DNA of 64,000 bases from Diabrotica undecimpunctata (taxonomy: Eukaryota > Arthropoda > Insecta > Coleoptera > Chrysomelidae), in the NCBI RefSeq assembly GCF_040954645.1, contig NC_092807.1:51344991-51408990 (forward strand). Reading direction: 5' to 3'. Under the pieces are notes generated by a model. That model was given only the letters and a program-made list of their open reading frames with translations. It was not told the DNA's origin and made no database searches. A program made the position numbers and the translations under genes. Below, in pieces: positions 30,664 to 62,675 of this stretch; position 1 is the first letter of the stretch, and every line of letters begins with the position of its first letter.

Positions 30664-32031
30664 TTACAAATCCAAATCAGATTCAGAAGATGAACTTTCA
30701 GAACCAAGATTTATAATAACTGGCTCGATCATTTTATCAGTAATATTGTCCAGCTTCCACATTTTTTCCTCTTCTTTAATAGTGTGATTTACTGCCTTTT
30801 CCCAGTTTTCAGGTTTTACATTATTTACGGACTCCAAAAACAACTGTTTAACATCATGAATTTTAAAAGTGGTATTTTTTCTTGAAACTTCACTCTTTAT
30901 CTGTGCCCATACCAGTTCAATCGGGTTTAATTCACAATGATATGGTGGGGATCTAAGTACTGTCATTCCACGATTTTTGGCAATTTCATCAATTTCGTAT
31001 TTTTTAAATTTTTCTTTATGAAGGGCACACAACGAATAAAGTTCCTTTCTTATAGATCCGGGATGGTACGTAATATTTTTTGAACTCAGCCAATTCTGCA
31101 AGTCTTTTTTTAACCACTTGGTTGTGGGCAGTCCTTCTATAAGTCTGGAGTGATAACTTGCATTATCCATTACTATTACACAGTTCTTAGGAAGAAGATC
31201 TATCATTTGTTCGAACCATTCTTGAAAGACATCAGCGTTCATGTCTTCATGGTAGTCACCGGTATGAGTTGATTCAAAAGTTAATAAACCACCTTCAACA
31301 AAACCGTCTGAACTGCCAATGTGTACTATTATCAGCCTGCGTCCCTTTCCTGATGGTGGGTTTAAACCAGTAGATAAGTTATTTACAAAAGCGTGCCTTT
31401 GACTTGTAACAGTTTCATCCTGCCAAAATTTATTTGGTGTATGACCCTCGTTGATCCATGTTTCATCAAGATAAAATATTTTTCTTTTTTGGTTTCTCAT
31501 TTCCTTTATGGTTCTTAGAAAATGTCTTCTCCATATGACAATATCGCTTCTTTCTAATAAAATAGACTTTCTGGGATTCTTTTTCCAGCGGAAGCCTATT
31601 TCTTTTAAAAGTTTCCATAACGTACTTCGACTCATTTCTGGATAATCCTTATCATCTCGAACTGAGACAAGAACTTTATCCAATGTTGGAAATTCTTGTC
31701 TAAAGAAGAATTCATGCACTTTCCGTTGAAGTCCTTCTTTAAAATGATATTCTATTTGAAATTTTGGTTTCCCTGGAGCATTACGTGGCATTTGAAAACT
31801 ACCACATTTCTCTTCTTTAATAACTCTGTAAATCGTAGATTTCCCAACACCAAGTGTACTGCTAACTAACTCAACGGTCTCATCAACACTTTCACATAAA
31901 CGTTTGTCTGTAAATGATTTAAAACAATTAAATATTAATGTTTTTTCATTAACTGTTAGAGGACCAATTTTTCGGCGTTTACACGGCACTTCCAAATTTT
32001 CCATAACACTAGTATACACAATAAACTGCAC
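30664..32031 (-). CDS. Sailor-like DD82E transposase, 455 residues, intact
   Basis: A DNA transposase that would cut and paste its own element. Residues about 20-80 form a helix-turn-helix (LTVNEKTLIFNCFKSF, then VGKSTIYRVIKEE). Residues 85-170 form a second DNA-binding region (MSRSTLWKLLKEIGFRWKK). The catalytic domain holds FYLDETWINEGHT (first Asp), RRLIIVHIGSSDGFV, NCVIVMDNASYHSRL (second Asp), and PPYHCELNPIELVWAQIK (Glu). I count 82 residues between the second Asp and the Glu, the spacing reported for the DD82E/Sailor group. The C-terminal tail is acidic and serine-rich. Met1 or the internal Met at residue 10 (MENLEVP) could be the start. No stop or frameshift is seen. Confidence 0.85.
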   Translation of the reverse strand: MQFIVYTSVMENLEVPCKRRKIGPLTVNEKTLIFNCFKSFTDKRLCESVDETVELVSSTLGVGKSTIYRVIKEEKCGSFQMPRNAPGKPKFQIEYHFKEGLQRKVHEFFFRQEFPTLDKVLVSVRDDKDYPEMSRSTLWKLLKEIGFRWKKNPRKSILLERSDIVIWRRHFLRTIKEMRNQKRKIFYLDETWINEGHTPNKFWQDETVTSQRHAFVNNLSTGLNPPSGKGRRLIIVHIGSSDGFVEGGLLTFESTHTGDYHEDMNADVFQEWFEQMIDLLPKNCVIVMDNASYHSRLIEGLPTTKWLKKDLQNWLSSKNITYHPGSIRKELYSLCALHKEKFKKYEIDEIAKNRGMTVLRSPPYHCELNPIELVWAQIKSEVSRKNTTFKIHDVKQLFLESVNNVKPENWEKAVNHTIKEEEKMWKLDNITDKMIEPVIINLGSESSSSESDLDL

Positions 32032-32759: not shown

Positions 32760-34360
32760 TTAAAACGTTTTAGACATTTGTGTGAAAAGATGACATCTAA
32801 ATTAAGGCTATGGATCGCTCCTTATTCGGAACTTTCTCTAGAAGGAGATGGAGCATTGTAAACCATGCGGCAAATCGGTAAGTTTTATTTTTTCTCTTTT
32901 TTTCTCGTCCCACAACATAACTAAATTCTAAAGCGGTTTTAGAATTCTAATTATTTTTTTTTAATTCTCAGATTTCAAGTAGAAAAAAGTACTTAATTGA
33001 CCAGCATTGTGGAACCCCACTTCATAAACGTAATTTGGAAAAATTAAATTCCTCTAAGTTAGCCCAAATGTCTCTGCGGGATAGTTTAAGCAGTTCAAAA
33101 AAAAGGAGGAAGACGCATTTAAATTTGATTTATGCCAGATGATGATTGCATCCAACATTCCTCTATATAAAGTTAATACCCTAGTTTTAAATGCTTTTTC
33201 GAAAAATATCTTAATAAATCCTTACCGGACGAGAGTACATTGAGAAAACATACTGTGGAAAAATGTTATGTGGAATGTATTTCAAAAATTAAGCGGGAGT
33301 TAGAGGGCAATTTTTTGTATATTATCGTGGATGAAACGACAGATGTATGCGGCAGGTATATAGCTAATTTAATGATTGGAATTTTGAACGAAAACTTTGC
33401 GAGAAAACCTTATTTAGTTGCCGTTAAAGAATTGGAAAAAACAAACAATTTAACAATAAGTCGATTTATACAAGATAGTTTAACAAACCTCTTTTTACCC
33501 AATGCTATACCAGTGAATAAAATAGTTTTAATGCTTTCAGATGCTGCGGCATATATGTTAAAAGCTGCTGTTAATTTAAAGATTTTTTATCCTAATTTAA
33601 TTCATTGCACTTGTGTAGCCCACGGGGTAAATAGAATTGCTGAAGAAATAAGAAATCTGTTTCCGTTGGTAAATAATTTTATAAATTTTATGAAAAAAGT
33701 TTTTGTAAAGGCTCCGTTGAGGGTGCAAATATATAAAGAAAGACTTCCCGGTGTCCCTTTGCCACCTAAACCAGTAATTACAAGGTGGGGAACCAGGCTC
33801 GAAGCAGTTTTTTTTTACTTTGAACACTGCAATGAAATAGAATTAGTTATGTCAGAATTTGATGATGATATTTCCGAAGCCATTCGAGAAACAAAAAAAA
33901 TGTTAAAAAATCCCAAATTGAAACAGGAACTCGCTTATATCAATGACAATTATAAATTAATAGTTACCACAATTACCTTATTAGAAAAACAAGAGATAAA
34001 TTTATGTGAGTCAGTAAAATTAATAGATAATTTAAAGACGAAAATTAAATCGGCACCTGGAAGTAACGGTCAATTAATTTAAAAAAAAAATGAAATATGT
34101 TTTCGACAAGAATGAAGGTTTTTCGTTTTTATCTAATGTTGCTTAAGTTTTGAATGGGACATTTTCCGAGGAATTTCAAATTATGCCAGATTTATTATCC
34201 GCTCTGAAATATGCTCCAATTACATTTGTCGATGTCAAACGTTCGTTTTCAATGTACAAATTAATTTTAAGTGATCGAAGACATAGTTTTAAGACCGAAA
34301 ATATTGAAAAACATTTAGTTGTTTCTATTAATGATAAAATTTTAAATGGTTACAATGTTT
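32760..34360 (+). pseudogene. hAT transposase (CGGBP1-like BED-finger type), degenerate
   Basis: A first exon from 32791 (MTSKLRLWIAPYSELSL) leads to a BED-type finger CKPCGKS, a GTAAGT intron (about 32880-32971), then QHCGTPLHKRN. After a frameshift come CQMMIASNIPLYKVNT and then the long open part 33240-34082 with VDETTDVCGRYIANLMIG (first Asp), LSDAAAYMLKA (second Asp), HCTCVAHGVNRI and VITRWGTRLEAV. The dimerisation end SFSMYKLILSDRRHSF lies in another frame at 34150-34362. Four or so frameshifts mean no active enzyme. The finger and domain wording resemble the hAT lineage that gave rise to CGGBP1. Confidence 0.85.
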
Positions 34361-56335: not shown

Positions 56336-56372
56336 TACGTGCTAGTGCTTGGCTGCATACAATCCTACATAC

Positions 56373-56643
56373 TGTAACGAAATAGCCCATCTCCGATACG
56401 TCATAATTCTTAGAAGGACGAATCTAGAAAACGTAAGAATCGGCTTGTCAATAGCGCCCGTCTTTCGGACGGGAGACAATTAGAGGTGGGACAACGCCAG
56501 AATGTTCTCGAAAAGTAACTTTATTATATATATGTAACGTTGTTAGGAGTGAGCTTAGTTGATAAGAGAGTACCGAACTGTAAACTTATAAATAAATATA
56601 TGTATATAAATTCGAACCGCTCGTTTTATTTAATCACGCTACA
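56373..56643 (+). repeat. 5' LTR
   Basis: It begins TGTAACG and ends GCTACA. It contains a TATAAATA box candidate at 56587-56594, overlapping an AATAAA-type signal, and a GC hairpin (GCGCCCGTCTTTCGGACGGG) near 56452. Confidence 0.97.
56587..56594 (+). promoter_or_regulatory. TATA-box candidate in LTR
   Basis: TATAAATA about 50 bases before the LTR end. It could equally serve as the polyadenylation signal region (AATAAATA) in the 3' LTR. Confidence 0.4.
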
Positions 56644-56645
56644 GT

Positions 56646-56663
56646 TGGTGTCCGGTGTGAGAT
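56646..56663 (+). promoter_or_regulatory. Primer-binding site
   Basis: TGGTGTCCGGTGTGAG begins two bases after the LTR. TGG pairs with a tRNA CCA end. I cannot name the tRNA with certainty. Confidence 0.7.
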
Positions 56664-56795
56664 TTGCAAATAAATTCAGCAGTGATTTTTGAAAAAGACT
56701 TTTGAACTTTTGAAAAGTATTATTCGTCGGGAACATCCGCGTAGTGATCTTTATATAAAAGAACATTTAAAAAGTACGTGTGTGCCTGACCAAAG

Positions 56796-58181
56796 ATGCT
56801 GCTAGTAGAACTTTCAGTAAAACAGTTGCGTGAGCAACTAGAAGAACGCGATGAAGACTGCAGTGGGTCCAAGAAGACACTCCAAGAACGACTAAAGACT
56901 GTTCTCAACAAGAATGGAGAAGACCCAGAGACATTCCAGTTCCAGTCAGCAGACGAAGCCGTTTTAACTAAAATAATTGATGGAAAATTCGAGAATGTTT
57001 CCAAAAGATTCGATGAAACGTCGCAAATGATAGAAGAATCTTCTAAAAAAAATGATGAAAGATTCAATGAAACGTCTCAAATGATAGAAGAATCTTCTAA
57101 AAAAAATGATGATAAATTCGAGAATGTTTCCAAAAGATTCGATGAAACGTCTCAAATGATAGAAGAATCTTCTAAAAAAAATGATGATAAATTCGAGAAC
57201 GTTTCCAAAAGATTCGATGAAACGTCTCAAATTATTAAAGAAGCAGCTAAACAAAATGAAGAGAAATTCGAAAATGTTGCTAGAAGATTCGACGAGACTT
57301 CTCAAATAATTAAAGAAGTATGTAATCAAAACAATGAGAAATTTGAAGAAGTCTCAAGAACATTTGATAAAGTAGAAGAGAAGATCAAACAATTAGAGAG
57401 CATGATAACCAATACAAAAGTGCTACCACCAGTTAATGCAGTAGCCTTAGATCCGGTAGTGAAAGAAGAATTACCTAGAGACGAAACGACACATAATATG
57501 AGATTCAAATTGCCACCATTTGATGGAAAGTCTTCTTGGTCCATATACCTTAGACAATTTGAAGCTATTGCGACAGCCAATCATTGGACAGAACAAGAAA
57601 AAGCTGTTTCCTTGACTGCTGCTTTACGAGGTGATGCTGCAGATATCCTAAGATCGATTCCTAAGGGTCAAGAAAAATGTTACCAGACCTTGTTCACTCG
57701 ACTAGACAAACGTTACGGAGATGCCCATCTACAACAAGTCTACAAGGCGCAACTAAGAAGTAGAATTCAACGAGCAAGTGAAAATTTACAAGAGTTTGAA
57801 GCAGATGTTGCTCGTATAGTGCGGTTGGCTTATCCGGAAGTACCAGACAACATTTTGGAAGAAATTGCTGTAGACACCTTCGTCAATGGGTTAAAAGAAA
57901 GTGAATTACAGAAAGCTTTACGACTAGCAAGACCAAAAGTTCTGGATGAAGCGCTCGCTATTGCCTTGGAACATGAAACAGCTAGTCAAACTTCACGGAG
58001 CCATCGAGTAAGAACCATCGAAGAAGGCGACGAACCAAACGATGAACGTCTGGAAGAAATGGTACGAAAAGTAGTTCGTAACACGATGCCGAAGAGACGC
58101 GAGCCCAGATGTTGGAATTGCGGTGACGTAGGTCATATTCGCCGTAATTGCAAGAAAATGATACAGCAGTCGGAAAACTAG
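56796..58181 (+). CDS. gag: Gag polyprotein of the Ty3/gypsy element
   Basis: The structural protein that packages the element's RNA. Residues 1-45 are a SAP-like helix pair (SVKQLREQLEERD, then KKTLQERLKTVL). Residues 64-205 are five to six copies of a 25-residue coiled-coil-like repeat (FENVSKRFDETSQMIEESS), one of them shortened. Residues about 245-395 are the retrotransposon gag/capsid region (FKLPPFDGKSSWSIYLRQFE, then RGDAADILRSIP and ENLQEFEADV). A single zinc knuckle follows at C439-x2-C442-x4-H447-x4-C452. The ATG at 56796 lies 152 bases after the LTR. It ends 34 bases inside the pol frame. Confidence 0.95.
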   Translation: MLLVELSVKQLREQLEERDEDCSGSKKTLQERLKTVLNKNGEDPETFQFQSADEAVLTKIIDGKFENVSKRFDETSQMIEESSKKNDERFNETSQMIEESSKKNDDKFENVSKRFDETSQMIEESSKKNDDKFENVSKRFDETSQIIKEAAKQNEEKFENVARRFDETSQIIKEVCNQNNEKFEEVSRTFDKVEEKIKQLESMITNTKVLPPVNAVALDPVVKEELPRDETTHNMRFKLPPFDGKSSWSIYLRQFEAIATANHWTEQEKAVSLTAALRGDAADILRSIPKGQEKCYQTLFTRLDKRYGDAHLQQVYKAQLRSRIQRASENLQEFEADVARIVRLAYPEVPDNILEEIAVDTFVNGLKESELQKALRLARPKVLDEALAIALEHETASQTSRSHRVRTIEEGDEPNDERLEEMVRKVVRNTMPKRREPRCWNCGDVGHIRRNCKKMIQQSEN

Positions 58182-61100
58182 AACGGGTCGACAACAAGGG
58201 GCAACTGCCGACCTCGAGAAACACAGCCCCCATAGTAACTGTGAACATTACGTCCTCAGGTGGAATTCATAGCTTGTACATAGAGGGTCGTATCAATAAT
58301 AAATGTAGATCGTTTTTGGTAGATACAGGTGCAACGAGAACTATTGCACGGCCAGAAGTAGTACGAGGCCATCTTAAATTATTGCCTGCAACAGTCAAGC
58401 TTAGAACAGCAACTGGTGAGATAATTAATACATATGGCGAGGCTAATATGTCAGTATCCATTGGCCAGACCACAGTAAAACATACAGTATTAATTGCAGA
58501 GATCTCCGATGAGTTCATATTGGGGATGGATTTACTAAGGAAAGTTGGGGCTGTATTGAATGTCAAAGATGGAGTTCTCGAGATCAGTGGTGAAGAGTTG
58601 CCGTTTCATGACGACAAAGATGTTATCAGCTTAATAACTACTTGTGACGTAACAATACCCGGTAATAGTGAGAAAATTTTGATGACCAGACCTGATGGTT
58701 ACTGCCGAGAGGGAAGTTTAAGGATGGTCGAAGATGTGAATAATGCCGAGTTCCTAACGGCAAAAGCTTTGGTGAGAATTCGAGATGTCGTTCCTGTAAG
58801 AGTTATGAATTTAAAGGGAACTGCCATTAAGTTAAGTAAAAGAACTTTGATCGGACAGTGTGTTCCCGTGGCTTCGATTTGTTCCATGAATACTAATGAG
58901 AAACCGTCGAAATCTAAGTATCCAAAGGAGCTTGTTGAGACGATGATTAAAACGTGCCAAGATCTTGATGATGAACGAACTAAAAGAGTAAAGTCTATGC
59001 TGATAGAATTTCAAGATGTTTTTGCCATGGATAAGAAGGATAATGGCAAAACAAGCATAGTAAAGCATAAAATTAATACTGGAGACGCTCAGCCAATCAG
59101 ACAACAACCTAGACGACTTCCATTTTCGAAAAGAGATGAAGCCGAAGACATCATCAAAGATATGAACAAACAAGGGGTAATTGAACCATCAAACAGTCCA
59201 TGGACATCACCTGTAGTCCTAGTAAAGAAGAAAGATGGTTCAACACGTTTTTGTATTGACTACCGACAGCTCAATGCAGTAACTAAAAAAGATAGTTATC
59301 CTTTGCCCAGAATAGACGATACTTTGGATACACTTTCTGGTTCTCGTTGGTTCTCCACACTTGATCTGAAAAGTGGATATTGGCAAGTAGACATGGAGCC
59401 AGCTGATCGTGAAAAAACCGCATTCTCGATAGGATCAGGGCTTTGGCAGTTCACAGTTATGCCCTTTGGTTTATGTAATGCCCCGGCCACATTTGAAAGA
59501 TTAATGGATGCAGTTTTAAGAGGTCTAACATGGAAAACATGCCTGGTTTATTTGGATGATGTAATTGTAGTTGGAAGATCCTTCGATGAACATGCCAATA
59601 ATCTAACAGAAGTCTTTCAACGATTGCGGGCAGCGAATCTGAAGTTGAGTCCGAAGAAATGTCACTTGTTTCGACGAGAAGTGAAGTACTTGGGACATAT
59701 TGTAGCAAGTAATGGTGTAACAGCTGATCCTGAAAAACTTGCAGCAATTAAGGATTGGCCAGTACCAAGAGATAAACACGAAATTAGAAGTTTTCTTGGC
59801 CTATGTACATATTACCGCCGTTTTGTCAAAGGATTTGCCAATATCTCCAAGCCATTAACAAAGTTGACAGAAGAAGGCAAAGAATATACATGGAGCGAAG
59901 AGTGTCAAAGAGCTTTTGAACACTTACAAATGGCTCTGATCAGCGCACCGATTTTAAGCTACCCTAGACAGGCAGGAAAATTTGTGTTGGACACCGATGC
60001 AAGCAACAGTGCAATAGGAGCTGTTCTTTCCCAAATCCAAGATGGGCAGGAGAAAGTCATCGCTTACTTTAGCAAAGTCTTGTCAAAACCAGAAAGAAAC
60101 TATTGCGTTACCAGAAGAGAATTGCTAGGCGTAGTGAAGGCTTGTGAGCATTTCCATAAATACTTGTATGGCAGAAAGTTTCTTCTTCGCACGGATCACG
60201 CTGCTCTAAAATGGCTCCTACAATTTCGTAATCCAGAGGGTCAGATGGCAAGATGGTTAGAACGATTACAAGAATATGATTACGAGATCGAACACAGGGC
60301 TGGCAGAGTTCATTCAAATGCTGATGCCCTTTCGAGACGGCCGTGCAGTGCAAATTGTAATCACTGTCTTAAATTAGAAGAACGACTTTGCCCCGTGAGA
60401 CGAACCACCGTCATTAATGAGCAATGGCAACCTCAACAGCTACAAGACGCTCAAGCAGATGATCCATGTATAAAAAGAGTATTGGATTGGATGCGTCGAA
60501 GTGAGAGACCTTCTTGGCAAGACATTAGTGCATGTAGTCCAGAAGTCAAGTGTTACTGGAGCCAATGGAATTGCCTAGTGCTGAAAGATGATCTTCTGTA
60601 TAGAACCTTTGAGAACGATGATGGTACAGAAACTAAGCTTCAGTTAATTGTACCTAAAAGTAAAGTTTCAGAAGTATTGCGTCAGTTGCATGACGGTGCA
60701 TCAGGTGGACACTTTGGTATCACGAAGACTCTGCAAAAGGTTCGAGAACGGTTCTATTGGGTGAACTGTAAAGATGATGTAAGAAGATGGTGCCGGAAAT
60801 GTGAACTGTGTGCAACCAGTAATGGTCCAGCAGGTAAAAAGAGGGCACCCATGAGACAGTACAATGTTGGTAGTCCTATGGAAAGAGTAGCAATCGACAT
60901 TGCAGGTCCACTTCCAGAGACAAATGATGGAAATAAATATATCCTGGTAGCCATGGATTATTTTACGAAATGGACTGAGGCTTATGCGATACCAAATCAA
61001 GAAGCTGCTACCGTTGCAGAGGTACTTGTTAAAGAATTCTTTAGCCGATTTGGTGTTCCCTTGGAGATCCACTCCGACCAAGGGCGAAACTTCGAGTCAA

Positions 61101-62389
61101 CCCTTTTCCAAAACGTTTGTAAATTGATTGGTGTCAATAAGACCAGAACGACACCCCTGCATCCTCAATCAGACGGAATGGTGGAGAGAATGAACCGAAC
61201 AATGGGTAAACACCTATCCAAGGTTGTATCAGAACATCAAAGAGATTGGGACCAGCATATTCATTTATTCCTAATGGCCTACCGCTCGGCCGTGAATGAA
61301 ACTACAGGCCAGACTCCAACCTGCCTGATGTTAGGTCGTGAAGTTCGTTTGCCCTGCGACCTAGAGTTTGGCTGCAGACCTTCCGAAGAACATGTTGCAA
61401 GCGAAGATTATGTCGACCGCCTGAAGTTAAGAATGAACAACATTCATGAACTTGCCCGACAACACATCCAGATAGCCAGTGACAGAATGAAAGATCAATA
61501 TGATTCTCGATGTAAGAGTGAAAGCTATGAAGTAGGTGATCTTGTTTGGCTTTATAATCCACAACGTCGTCGAGGCTTGTCTCCCAAACTGCAAAGACAA
61601 TGGGAAGGTCCATATGAAATTAAAAAGAAAATAAATGACGTAATATTCCGAATTAAGAAGTTGCCGAAAGGTAAACCAAAAGTAGTTCACATAAATCGTC
61701 TTGCACCATATGCTGGCTCAAATGAAACAGAAGAAGCACGAACCCTTCAACATGAGATCAAAGATGACCGGCGACCAAGCTTTAATGAATTTATGTCAAA
61801 TTACGCAGAGAGAAAGAGTGCTAGATTCGGCGTGACCACAGAAGTTCAGCAGGATCTTTTTAGTGTTCCGCATAACGTCTCTCTAGCCCACTGTGTTGCC
61901 CAAGATCTTGAGATGACTAACGGAATCTCATCCGTATTTTATAAGAAATTCGGTCGTTTGGACGAGTTAAAAAACCAGCAACCTAAAGTTGGAAGAGTAC
62001 TGAGATTAGAAGATGGTTCTCGATCTTTGCTGTATATGGTGACCAGGAAGTCGTATACAGACAGGGCAAGCTACGAGGATATATGGCGTGCTCTAACTAA
62101 TTTGAAGAAAATTGTGTGCAATTACGACATCAAGAATTTGGCCTTACCCAAAATAGGCCATGCACTAGATAATCTGGACTGGAAGATTGTCAGAAGCATG
62201 CTTGAAGTGATCTTCCGAGAAACCGGCGTACGAATTACTGTGTGTTGCATTAACCCGATGAGATCGTATCCTTCAAAGTCAGTAGACTGTTATTTCTTTC
62301 TAAAGGGTTCATGCAGAGCTGGAGAGTCCTGTAGATTCCGCCATCCTGTGCCTACATATAGAGTTGCTGATCGGGACAATCAGATTTAA
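58148..62389 (+). CDS. pol: Pol polyprotein with C-terminal macro domain and CCCH zinc finger
   Basis: Copies and integrates the element. Aspartic protease DTGA at residue 59. Reverse transcriptase with VLVKKKDGSTRFCIDYRQLN and YLDD at 468-471. RNase H with DTDAS at 615. Integrase with zinc site H848/H855/C885/C888 and catalytic D917, D977, E1013 (35 residues between the last two), then a GPY/F-type WEGPYEI at 1152. The protein continues beyond the usual end: residues about 1228-1366 form a macro domain like TARG1/OARD1, and C1381-x7-C1389-x5-C1395-x3-H1399 is a CCCH finger. The frame has no early ATG and lies -1 to gag, so it is presumably reached by frameshifting; 58148 is a TTG used only as a marker. 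Confidence 0.95.
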   Translation: MQENDTAVGKLERVDNKGQLPTSRNTAPIVTVNITSSGGIHSLYIEGRINNKCRSFLVDTGATRTIARPEVVRGHLKLLPATVKLRTATGEIINTYGEANMSVSIGQTTVKHTVLIAEISDEFILGMDLLRKVGAVLNVKDGVLEISGEELPFHDDKDVISLITTCDVTIPGNSEKILMTRPDGYCREGSLRMVEDVNNAEFLTAKALVRIRDVVPVRVMNLKGTAIKLSKRTLIGQCVPVASICSMNTNEKPSKSKYPKELVETMIKTCQDLDDERTKRVKSMLIEFQDVFAMDKKDNGKTSIVKHKINTGDAQPIRQQPRRLPFSKRDEAEDIIKDMNKQGVIEPSNSPWTSPVVLVKKKDGSTRFCIDYRQLNAVTKKDSYPLPRIDDTLDTLSGSRWFSTLDLKSGYWQVDMEPADREKTAFSIGSGLWQFTVMPFGLCNAPATFERLMDAVLRGLTWKTCLVYLDDVIVVGRSFDEHANNLTEVFQRLRAANLKLSPKKCHLFRREVKYLGHIVASNGVTADPEKLAAIKDWPVPRDKHEIRSFLGLCTYYRRFVKGFANISKPLTKLTEEGKEYTWSEECQRAFEHLQMALISAPILSYPRQAGKFVLDTDASNSAIGAVLSQIQDGQEKVIAYFSKVLSKPERNYCVTRRELLGVVKACEHFHKYLYGRKFLLRTDHAALKWLLQFRNPEGQMARWLERLQEYDYEIEHRAGRVHSNADALSRRPCSANCNHCLKLEERLCPVRRTTVINEQWQPQQLQDAQADDPCIKRVLDWMRRSERPSWQDISACSPEVKCYWSQWNCLVLKDDLLYRTFENDDGTETKLQLIVPKSKVSEVLRQLHDGASGGHFGITKTLQKVRERFYWVNCKDDVRRWCRKCELCATSNGPAGKKRAPMRQYNVGSPMERVAIDIAGPLPETNDGNKYILVAMDYFTKWTEAYAIPNQEAATVAEVLVKEFFSRFGVPLEIHSDQGRNFESTLFQNVCKLIGVNKTRTTPLHPQSDGMVERMNRTMGKHLSKVVSEHQRDWDQHIHLFLMAYRSAVNETTGQTPTCLMLGREVRLPCDLEFGCRPSEEHVASEDYVDRLKLRMNNIHELARQHIQIASDRMKDQYDSRCKSESYEVGDLVWLYNPQRRRGLSPKLQRQWEGPYEIKKKINDVIFRIKKLPKGKPKVVHINRLAPYAGSNETEEARTLQHEIKDDRRPSFNEFMSNYAERKSARFGVTTEVQQDLFSVPHNVSLAHCVAQDLEMTNGISSVFYKKFGRLDELKNQQPKVGRVLRLEDGSRSLLYMVTRKSYTDRASYEDIWRALTNLKKIVCNYDIKNLALPKIGHALDNLDWKIVRSMLEVIFRETGVRITVCCINPMRSYPSKSVDCYFFLKGSCRAGESCRFRHPVPTYRVADRDNQI
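61829..62245 (+). other. TARG1/OARD1-like macro domain in pol (residues ~1228-1366)
   Basis: Macro domains bind ADP-ribose, and TARG1/OARD1 removes ADP-ribose from acidic side chains and O-acetyl-ADP-ribose. Visible matches to TARG1 are SLAHC, an FKKKFG-like FYKKFGRLDEL, the NQQ-K-G-V run, LLYMVTRK (human LITKK), SYEDIWRALTNLK (human TYENLQKSLEAMK), LALPKIGHALDNLDW (human LSMPRIGCGLDRLQW) and a closing RITV. The catalytic Asp (human D125) is kept as D1341. The lysine of human K84 aligns with R1300, with K1301 next to it, so chemistry could be altered. ADP-ribose binding is inferred. Confidence 0.9.
62288..62344 (+). other. CCCH zinc finger at pol C terminus (residues 1381-1399)
   Basis: CYFFLKGSCRAGESCRFRH fits C-x7-C-x5-C-x3-H, the RNA-binding zinc finger of the ZAP/TTP class. 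It lies 15 residues after the macro domain and 14 before the stop. It could bind the element's RNA or recruit the macro domain to RNA; both are guesses. Confidence 0.9.
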
Positions 62390-62400
62390 GAGGGGAGCAG
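62388..62400 (+). promoter_or_regulatory. Polypurine tract
   Basis: AAGAGGGGAGCAG directly before the 3' LTR, primer site for plus-strand synthesis. It overlaps the end of the pol stop codon. Confidence 0.8.
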
Positions 62401-62671
62401 TGTAACGAAATAGCCCATCTCCGATACGTCATAATTCTTAGAAGGACGAATCTAGAAAACGTAAGAATCGGCTTGTCAATAGCGCCCGTCTTTCGGACGG
62501 GAGACAATTAGAGGTGGGACAACGCCAGAATGTTCTCGAAAAGTAACTTTATTATATATATGTAACGTTGTTAGGAGTGAGCTTAGTTGATAAGAGAGTA
62601 CCGAACTGTAAACTTATAAATAAATATATGTATATAAATTCGAACCGCTCGTTTTATTTAATCACGCTACA
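62401..62671 (+). repeat. 3' LTR
   Basis: Base-for-base the same as the 5' LTR by eye, followed by the ATAC duplication. Confidence 0.97.
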
Positions 62672-62675
62672 ATAC

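Follow-up and report, generated by a model that had tools for sequence, protein, structure and literature searches.

The 64,000-nucleotide stretch of the genome of the beetle Diabrotica undecimpunctata analysed here (contig NC_092807.1, positions 51,344,991 to 51,408,990; hereafter the window) contains at positions 56373-62671 a complete long terminal repeat (LTR) retrotransposon, which is a young Ty3/gypsy copy with an identical LTR pair and whose pol frame continues beyond the integrase into a macrodomain of the TARG1/OARD1 type followed by a CCCH zinc finger. The same module, akin to TARG1, recurs in relatives of this element in several beetles. As for its role, we tentatively favor, at somewhat less than even probability, an integrase-attached eraser of ADP-ribose that would have turned into a reader or tether in Diabrotica, the CCCH finger serving as a holder of nucleic acid.

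An earlier note, drawn up from the letters and open reading frames of this stretch, had described one frame of 1413 codons running from protease through integrase into a macro domain and a CCCH finger, and the frame list together with Pfam searches bears this description out. The module (61829-62389) sits between the integrase C-terminal domain and a putative polypurine tract. Residues 4-139 of the translated segment 61829-62386 are matched by human TARG1 (4j5r, E 2.1e-28, the best sequence match in the PDB); the Pfam Macro model scored just 16.7 bits for the module, below its cut-off of 22, and residues 150-173 constitute the CCCH finger (PF00642, 26.3 bits at a cut-off of 20.5) with the spacing C-x7-C-x5-C-x3-H. 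In the AlphaFold2 model of the module, built on a 33-sequence alignment, the predicted local distance difference test is about 95 across most of the macro part, and the finger is modelled at low confidence (block means 53-62). Compared by Foldseek with the PDB, this model has TARG1 as its top match (4j5s, E 1.6e-16, root-mean-square deviation 0.9 Å, TM 0.96 by target length), followed by DarG, designed hydrolases and alphavirus macrodomains, and in the viral structure library BFVD 147 entries match it with an E of at most 0.001, led by Kadipiro virus VP8 (E 4e-17, 34% identity). Among solved structures the macro fold is thus nearest to TARG1, and the likeness to TARG1/OARD1 suggested in the earlier note held in both the sequence and the fold-prediction check, while its comparison of the finger with that of ZAP proved weak: the top PDB sequence matches of the finger are CPSF4, and the ZAP-like finger of Pfam reaches an E of only 0.027. 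The IMG/VR collection yielded no relative to P0006, a query of the type that retains K84 (see below); the alignment A2 retrieved from it 44 loci at 26-36% identity, which, judging by the nature of the collection, are presumably macrodomains of phage type.

The 1.74-Gb genome of D. undecimpunctata itself was searched with the module as query, giving 6031 first-look candidates, 150 of which were scored. The match spans residues 1-186 in 149 of these and 1-185 in one, at 97-100% identity, and is free of internal stops in 145 of 150. A family of thousands of copies is suggested by the 6031 candidates, a figure that does not itself count copies. Since the module was the query, these full-length matches alone do not prove its presence in every copy. 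The frames around the scored matches are 1410-1420 residues long in 44 cases, 1800-1860 in eight and 915-935 in 26, and 20 plus-strand copies picked by frame length were fetched, namely seven two-frame full-length, five one-frame full-length and eight short ones. All 20 have flanking LTRs with pairs 98-100% identical (the LTR end was set by reading the sequence in six copies where BLAST overran), a 4-bp target site duplication, and a stop-free module with an intact CCCH finger immediately before the polypurine tract and 3′ LTR. A chance fusion of the module to the 3′ end of one copy, other copies lacking it, which the earlier note had considered as the alternative, is ruled out by the position of the module between the LTRs in 20 of 20 copies and by its relatives in ten named beetle species. 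Five of them (L049-L053) are full-length copies with gag and pol joined in one frame of 1853-1855 residues. The target site duplications carry a central TA in 21 of 21 cases (the window and L034-L053), being ATAT in eight, ATAC in five, GTAT in five and other words in three, and the element therefore has a strong target preference. A family nearer to the K84 type was looked for in the same genome with P0006 as query, and among the candidates scored (150 of 5334) it led to the window's family, at 52-54% identity, a result that leaves room for more distant families.

The extension was also sought outside this genome, as the earlier note had proposed, and protein searches revealed macrodomain relatives at 78-90% identity in Diabrotica virgifera, D. 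undecimpunctata and D. balteata and at 39-49% in Brassicogethes, Aromia, Exocentrus, Molorchus, Callosobruchus, Acanthoscelides and Pyrocoelia. Among the matches listed (the best 120 of 5986 in one search) these make ten named species, all of which we take to be beetles. Six of the ten have the integrase C-terminal motif, the macrodomain and the CCCH finger on one protein: D. undecimpunctata, D. virgifera (P0001), Aromia (P0017), Exocentrus (P0018), Molorchus (P0019) and Callosobruchus (P0030). The other related rows are fragments, with no complete finger in Pyrocoelia P0032 or Brassicogethes P0015. For motif counts 33 rows, many of them fragments, were taken as element pieces; the integrase motif was found in nine, the CCCH pattern in 19 and the word RRGQC, which would be the polypurine tract and LTR start translated in frame, in 12. 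Three proteins named in the database "ADP-ribose glycohydrolase OARD1-like" (P0002-P0004) resemble pieces of this retrotransposon, and some beetle "OARD1-like" gene models may be retrotransposon pieces.

In a tree of these sequences 21 element rows separate from 10 animal OARD1 rows with support 100/100, and in a tree confined to the macro columns, from which P0002, P0042, P0061 and P0082 were left out, 17 element rows separate from the 10 animal rows and the beetle's own gene with support 97/92. Both trees covered element and animal sequences, and within this scope they fit a single capture of the macrodomain. The beetle's own gene is represented by the best match of the genome to mammalian OARD1 (P0034), an open frame of 683 residues on contig C3 (L098:2033-4084) with 48% identity, the remaining 149 scored matches having 39-41%. 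This frame retains K84 and the word GCGLD, conforms to the published TARG1 pattern, and shares 36% identity with the window's macrodomain; no LTR-like repeats were seen in the 5.1 kb read around it, and a Pfam scan of the frame gave no match. We take it to be a host TARG1-like gene separate from the element. Its long N-terminus is repetitive, possibly with a second degenerate macro unit.

In TARG1 the nucleophile is K84 and the resolving residue D125, and the mutants K84A and D125A are inactive (PMC9967889, PMC8501950, PMC5725667, PMC6397177); the published pattern reads TKx(30,35)Px[IL]GxGxD (PMC6397177). In the window the K84 site is occupied by R, GxG reads GHA, and the D125 site retains D. 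In alignment A3 the K84 site is K in all 17 covering element rows from outside Diabrotica (eight of them from named beetles), whereas R stands there in four of four Diabrotica rows; at the D125 site, D is found in 17 of 18 non-Diabrotica element rows and in the window, and E in the three remaining Diabrotica rows. R at the K84 site is common to all 20 fetched copies, seven of which have a further R at the following position; at the D125 site all 20 have D. The strict TARG1 pattern is absent from the window and occurs in six of 34 element rows, some of which are fragments, versus 14 of 15 non-element rows. Residues D20, F22 and I44 of the adenine site (roles from PMC6397177) are retained in the window, as judged from alignment A3. 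Because of R at the K84 site and GHA in place of GxG, hydrolase activity has probably been lost in the Diabrotica domain, and the deviations of Diabrotica rows at G123 (A in three of four) and D125 suggest that ADP-ribose binding may be weakened as well. The retention of K84 elsewhere keeps the hydrolase idea alive for the lineage, and such activity is possible in elements outside Diabrotica. Thus, from the proposal of the earlier note that a host-type ADP-ribosyl hydrolase was captured, the host-type origin fits the trees, and an active hydrolase finds no support in the window copy.

Whether the domain is maintained was addressed by counting synonymous and nonsynonymous changes per domain between the window and the seven full, five one-frame and eight short copies; as copies share ancestry, the counts are non-independent and the ratios are indications rather than tests. 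For the macrodomain 20 synonymous and eight nonsynonymous changes were counted in the full copies (ratio 0.11), 26 and 11 in the one-frame copies (0.12), and 14 and 12 in the short copies (0.24). The corresponding ratios are 0.07 in both full and one-frame copies for the reverse transcriptase (RT), 0.00, 0.00 and 0.14 in full, one-frame and short copies for the integrase zinc part, 0.02 and 0.00 in full and one-frame copies for the integrase core, and 0.47-0.81 for the integrase C-terminal stretch. In the finger tail (37 codons) changes are few, one synonymous in each of the three sets versus three, none and six nonsynonymous, and no low ratio is seen. From these values the macro fold in Diabrotica looks to be under purifying selection.

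A particular source of evidence is the short derivative, the layout of which was found in 15 of 30 loci fetched (L004-L033) and in all eight copies read fully (L041-L048). It comprises gag, the tail of RNase H, the integrase zinc domain, a gap, the integrase C-terminal domain, the macrodomain and the CCCH finger; this second gap spans the integrase core, and protease, RT and integrase core are absent. Each of the eight copies is one open frame of 919-924 residues throughout; a Pfam scan of one of them recovered gag, both integrase parts and CCCH and did not recover the macrodomain. With LTRs and target site duplications but devoid of RT and integrase core, all eight are non-autonomous LTR elements which have clearly transposed, presumably borrowing RT and integrase. 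An origin as a retrocopy of spliced RNA was considered and rejected, given that the junctions do not follow the GT-AG rule and have short words in common, AATAT for example. In all 13 copies having gag and module in one frame (the eight short and the five full-length ones) the gag CCHC knuckle is disrupted, the CCCH finger being intact in all 20; the knuckle is still coded by the window and by six of the seven other two-frame full-length copies, in two of those six outside the gag frame. In P0031, too, a K84-type macrodomain shares its frame with a related end of gag (38% identity across 84 residues, E 3e-12). That elements which have lost most of pol still carry the module speaks for a benefit to the element, perhaps in the particle.

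Taken together, these observations can be arranged into the following course of events. A Ty3/gypsy lineage of beetles would have acquired a TARG1-type macrodomain, which with the CCCH finger came to form the C-terminus of pol after the integrase C-terminal domain. The module would accompany integrase in the particle and, once in the nucleus, act during integration on chromatin or DNA ends that carry ADP-ribose. In the sampled elements outside Diabrotica, where the catalytic pair is kept with the one exception at D125, it would probably erase ADP-ribose; in Diabrotica, where the nucleophile is lost and the fold is apparently under purifying selection, it is most likely a reader or tether that binds only. 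An ancestral eraser followed by a reader in Diabrotica is the most economical account of the residues. Nucleic acid is the probable ligand of the CCCH finger, which would keep the module on the RNA or cDNA of the element. This integrase-attached role is our first choice on the model of the Ty3 integrase chromodomain, which assists placement of integration (PMC8632968), and because TARG1 takes ADP-ribose off DNA ends and thymidine (PMC5725667, PMC8501950). The link to integrase is supported by the place of the module directly after the integrase C-terminal domain and adjoining the polypurine tract and LTR in every fetched copy, and by the short derivatives, which retain the integrase zinc and C-terminal domains along with macro and CCCH and lose the core. 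A more detailed scenario, which we regard as possible rather than probable, holds that a captured TARG1 macrodomain in the place of the chromodomain is an integrase-attached ADP-ribose sensor, an eraser at first and a catalytically dead reader in Diabrotica, where its copies, perhaps thousands of them, would coexist with a host-like TARG1 gene and a short parasite would keep a gag-fused version of the sensor. Several observations weigh against the integrase-attached role. The strict TARG1 pattern is scarce among element rows, the first G of GxG is replaced by A or S in many rows outside Diabrotica, and Diabrotica rows deviate at G123 and D125. The macro ratio is higher in the short copies, the finger tail gives no sign of constraint, and all ratios come from copies of shared ancestry. 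All copies were retrieved via the macro module, so the counts speak for module-bearing copies and a subfamily lacking the module may exist; the sequence preference of the target duplications requires no ADP-ribose, and the fusion of gag and module in the short derivative fits a particle or RNA role equally well.

Other explanations have to be weighed against this one. The module could be an eraser engaged in counter-defence, removing, as viral macrodomains do, ADP-ribose that host PARPs or sirtuins attach to proteins or cDNA of the element or to silencing factors. The preservation of K84 and D125 outside Diabrotica speaks for it, as do the occurrence of the fold in viral proteins in BFVD and the finding that mono-ADP-ribosylation of KAP1 by SIRT6 silences mammalian L1 (PMC4695847). 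Yet the nucleophile is missing from every Diabrotica protein row and fetched copy, and the family is abundant nonetheless. KAP1, moreover, is a vertebrate factor, and on balance we judge counter-defence unlikely, though not far-fetched. Quite unlikely in our estimation is a part in the particle or RNA packaging, by which macro and CCCH would be a nucleic-acid-binding accessory doing the work of a nucleocapsid, with ADP-ribose chemistry secondary. CCCH fingers often bind RNA, the broken knuckle of all one-frame copies coincides with an intact finger, and P0031 repeats the joining of a gag end to a macrodomain; against this, the window and most other two-frame full-length copies code the knuckle themselves, and the conservation of K84 and D125 outside Diabrotica would be left unexplained.

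The module might finally have been fused once and be drifting as a passenger devoid of function, which would suit the finger pattern being present in just 19 of the 33 related rows (though many are fragments) and the ratios of the finger tail. The low macro ratio and the retention of the macrodomain in ten named beetle species, and in short derivatives lacking most of pol, make this improbable. That an ordinary host OARD1 gene lies beside one element copy, or fused with it by chance, may be prompted by the database labels of some fragments and is refuted by the same arrangement between LTRs in 20 fetched copies elsewhere and by the distinct host-like TARG1 gene. We thus retain the integrase-attached eraser, become a reader in Diabrotica, as the preferred if tentative reading.

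The element in the window has the following anatomy, all its coding and terminal features lying on the forward strand. It is bounded by target site duplications ATAC (56369-56372 and 62672-62675) and by LTRs of the TG..CA type, 271 nucleotides each and 100% identical (56373-56643 and 62401-62671). gag (56796-58181, 461 residues) comprises an N-terminal SAP domain (56796-56900, Pfam), a domain of DNA-binding type; a region of direct repeats at 75-nucleotide spacing (also 54 + 21; 56929-57357), gag length varying among copies; a Retrotrans_gag match slightly below the cut-off; and a CCHC knuckle, which is broken in L049-L053. The pol frame (58148-62389, 1413 residues) overlaps gag by 34 nucleotides in a different frame, so that gag lies outside it. 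Searched in pieces, pol gave Pfam matches to aspartic protease, RVT_1, RNase H, Integrase_H2C2, rve and Integrase_p58_C: protease at 58280-58540 (PF13975, E 7e-11), RT and RNase H at 59060-60277 (PF00078, PF17917; Ty3 RT 4ol8, E 3e-90) and integrase with its H2C2 zinc domain, catalytic core and C-terminal domain at 60650-61711 (PF17921, PF00665, PF22938; integrase part of the Ty3 polyprotein, E 2e-30). Then follow the macrodomain (61838-62245), the CCCH finger (62276-62347), and a tract AAGAGGGGAGCAG (62388-62400), read from the sequence and interpreted as the polypurine tract, which adjoins the 3′ LTR. The LTR termini with short target duplication, the order protease, RT, RNase H, integrase, and yeast Ty3 as the closest solved structure for both RT and integrase place the element in Ty3/gypsy. 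It differs from errantiviruses in having no env between pol and the 3′ LTR, pol ending 11 nucleotides upstream of the latter, and from chromoviruses in that Pfam scans of pol gave no chromodomain, the place of which is occupied by the macrodomain. Elsewhere in the window, a 455-residue frame on the reverse strand (30664-32031) with DDE_3 and weak HTH_33 matches possibly encodes a mariner-like transposase, and a 280-residue frame on the forward strand (33240-34082) with a DUF659 match is possibly hAT-like.

To our knowledge, the domains known to be attached to integrases recognise histone methylation or associate with transcription factors (for Ty3, PMC8632968). Placed in this position, a macrodomain would connect mobile DNA with ADP-ribosylation, which marks DNA breaks and the action of antiviral PARPs, and would, if the proposal is true, give mobile elements a new means of reading or erasing marks of the host. 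The active-looking domain outside Diabrotica, the dead-looking one inside it and the short derivative retaining the module offer a natural contrast by which eraser and reader can be directly told apart. Among the literature matches listed, with subscription journals mostly uncovered, no Ty3/gypsy element with a macrodomain was recognised by title or abstract start. The precedent for a retroelement with a macrodomain is given by fish epsilon-like endogenous retroviruses, which occasionally carry macro domain open reading frames (Basta et al. 2009, cited by the review PMC4977317); there they are additional frames of vertebrate retroviruses, whereas the beetle module is fused to a Ty3/gypsy pol, a fusion that is new as far as this literature search shows. 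Chromoviruses and Ty3 share with the beetle element the gene order, an extra domain past the integrase C-terminal domain and possibly its targeting role, but have a chromodomain where the latter has macro and CCCH. Viral macrodomains (alphavirus nsP3, Kadipiro virus VP8) likewise bring the macro fold into a viral genome, though with no integrase, their identity to the window domain being 13-18% for alphaviruses and 34% for VP8. The DarG macrodomain has a TARG1-like fold at about 20% identity but belongs to a bacterial antitoxin acting on DNA ADP-ribosylation. TARG1/OARD1 (C6orf130) itself, the closest solved sequence, agrees with the window domain in fold and in D20, F22, I44 and D125, and differs from it in K84 and GxG and in not being joined to a retrotransposon pol and a CCCH finger.

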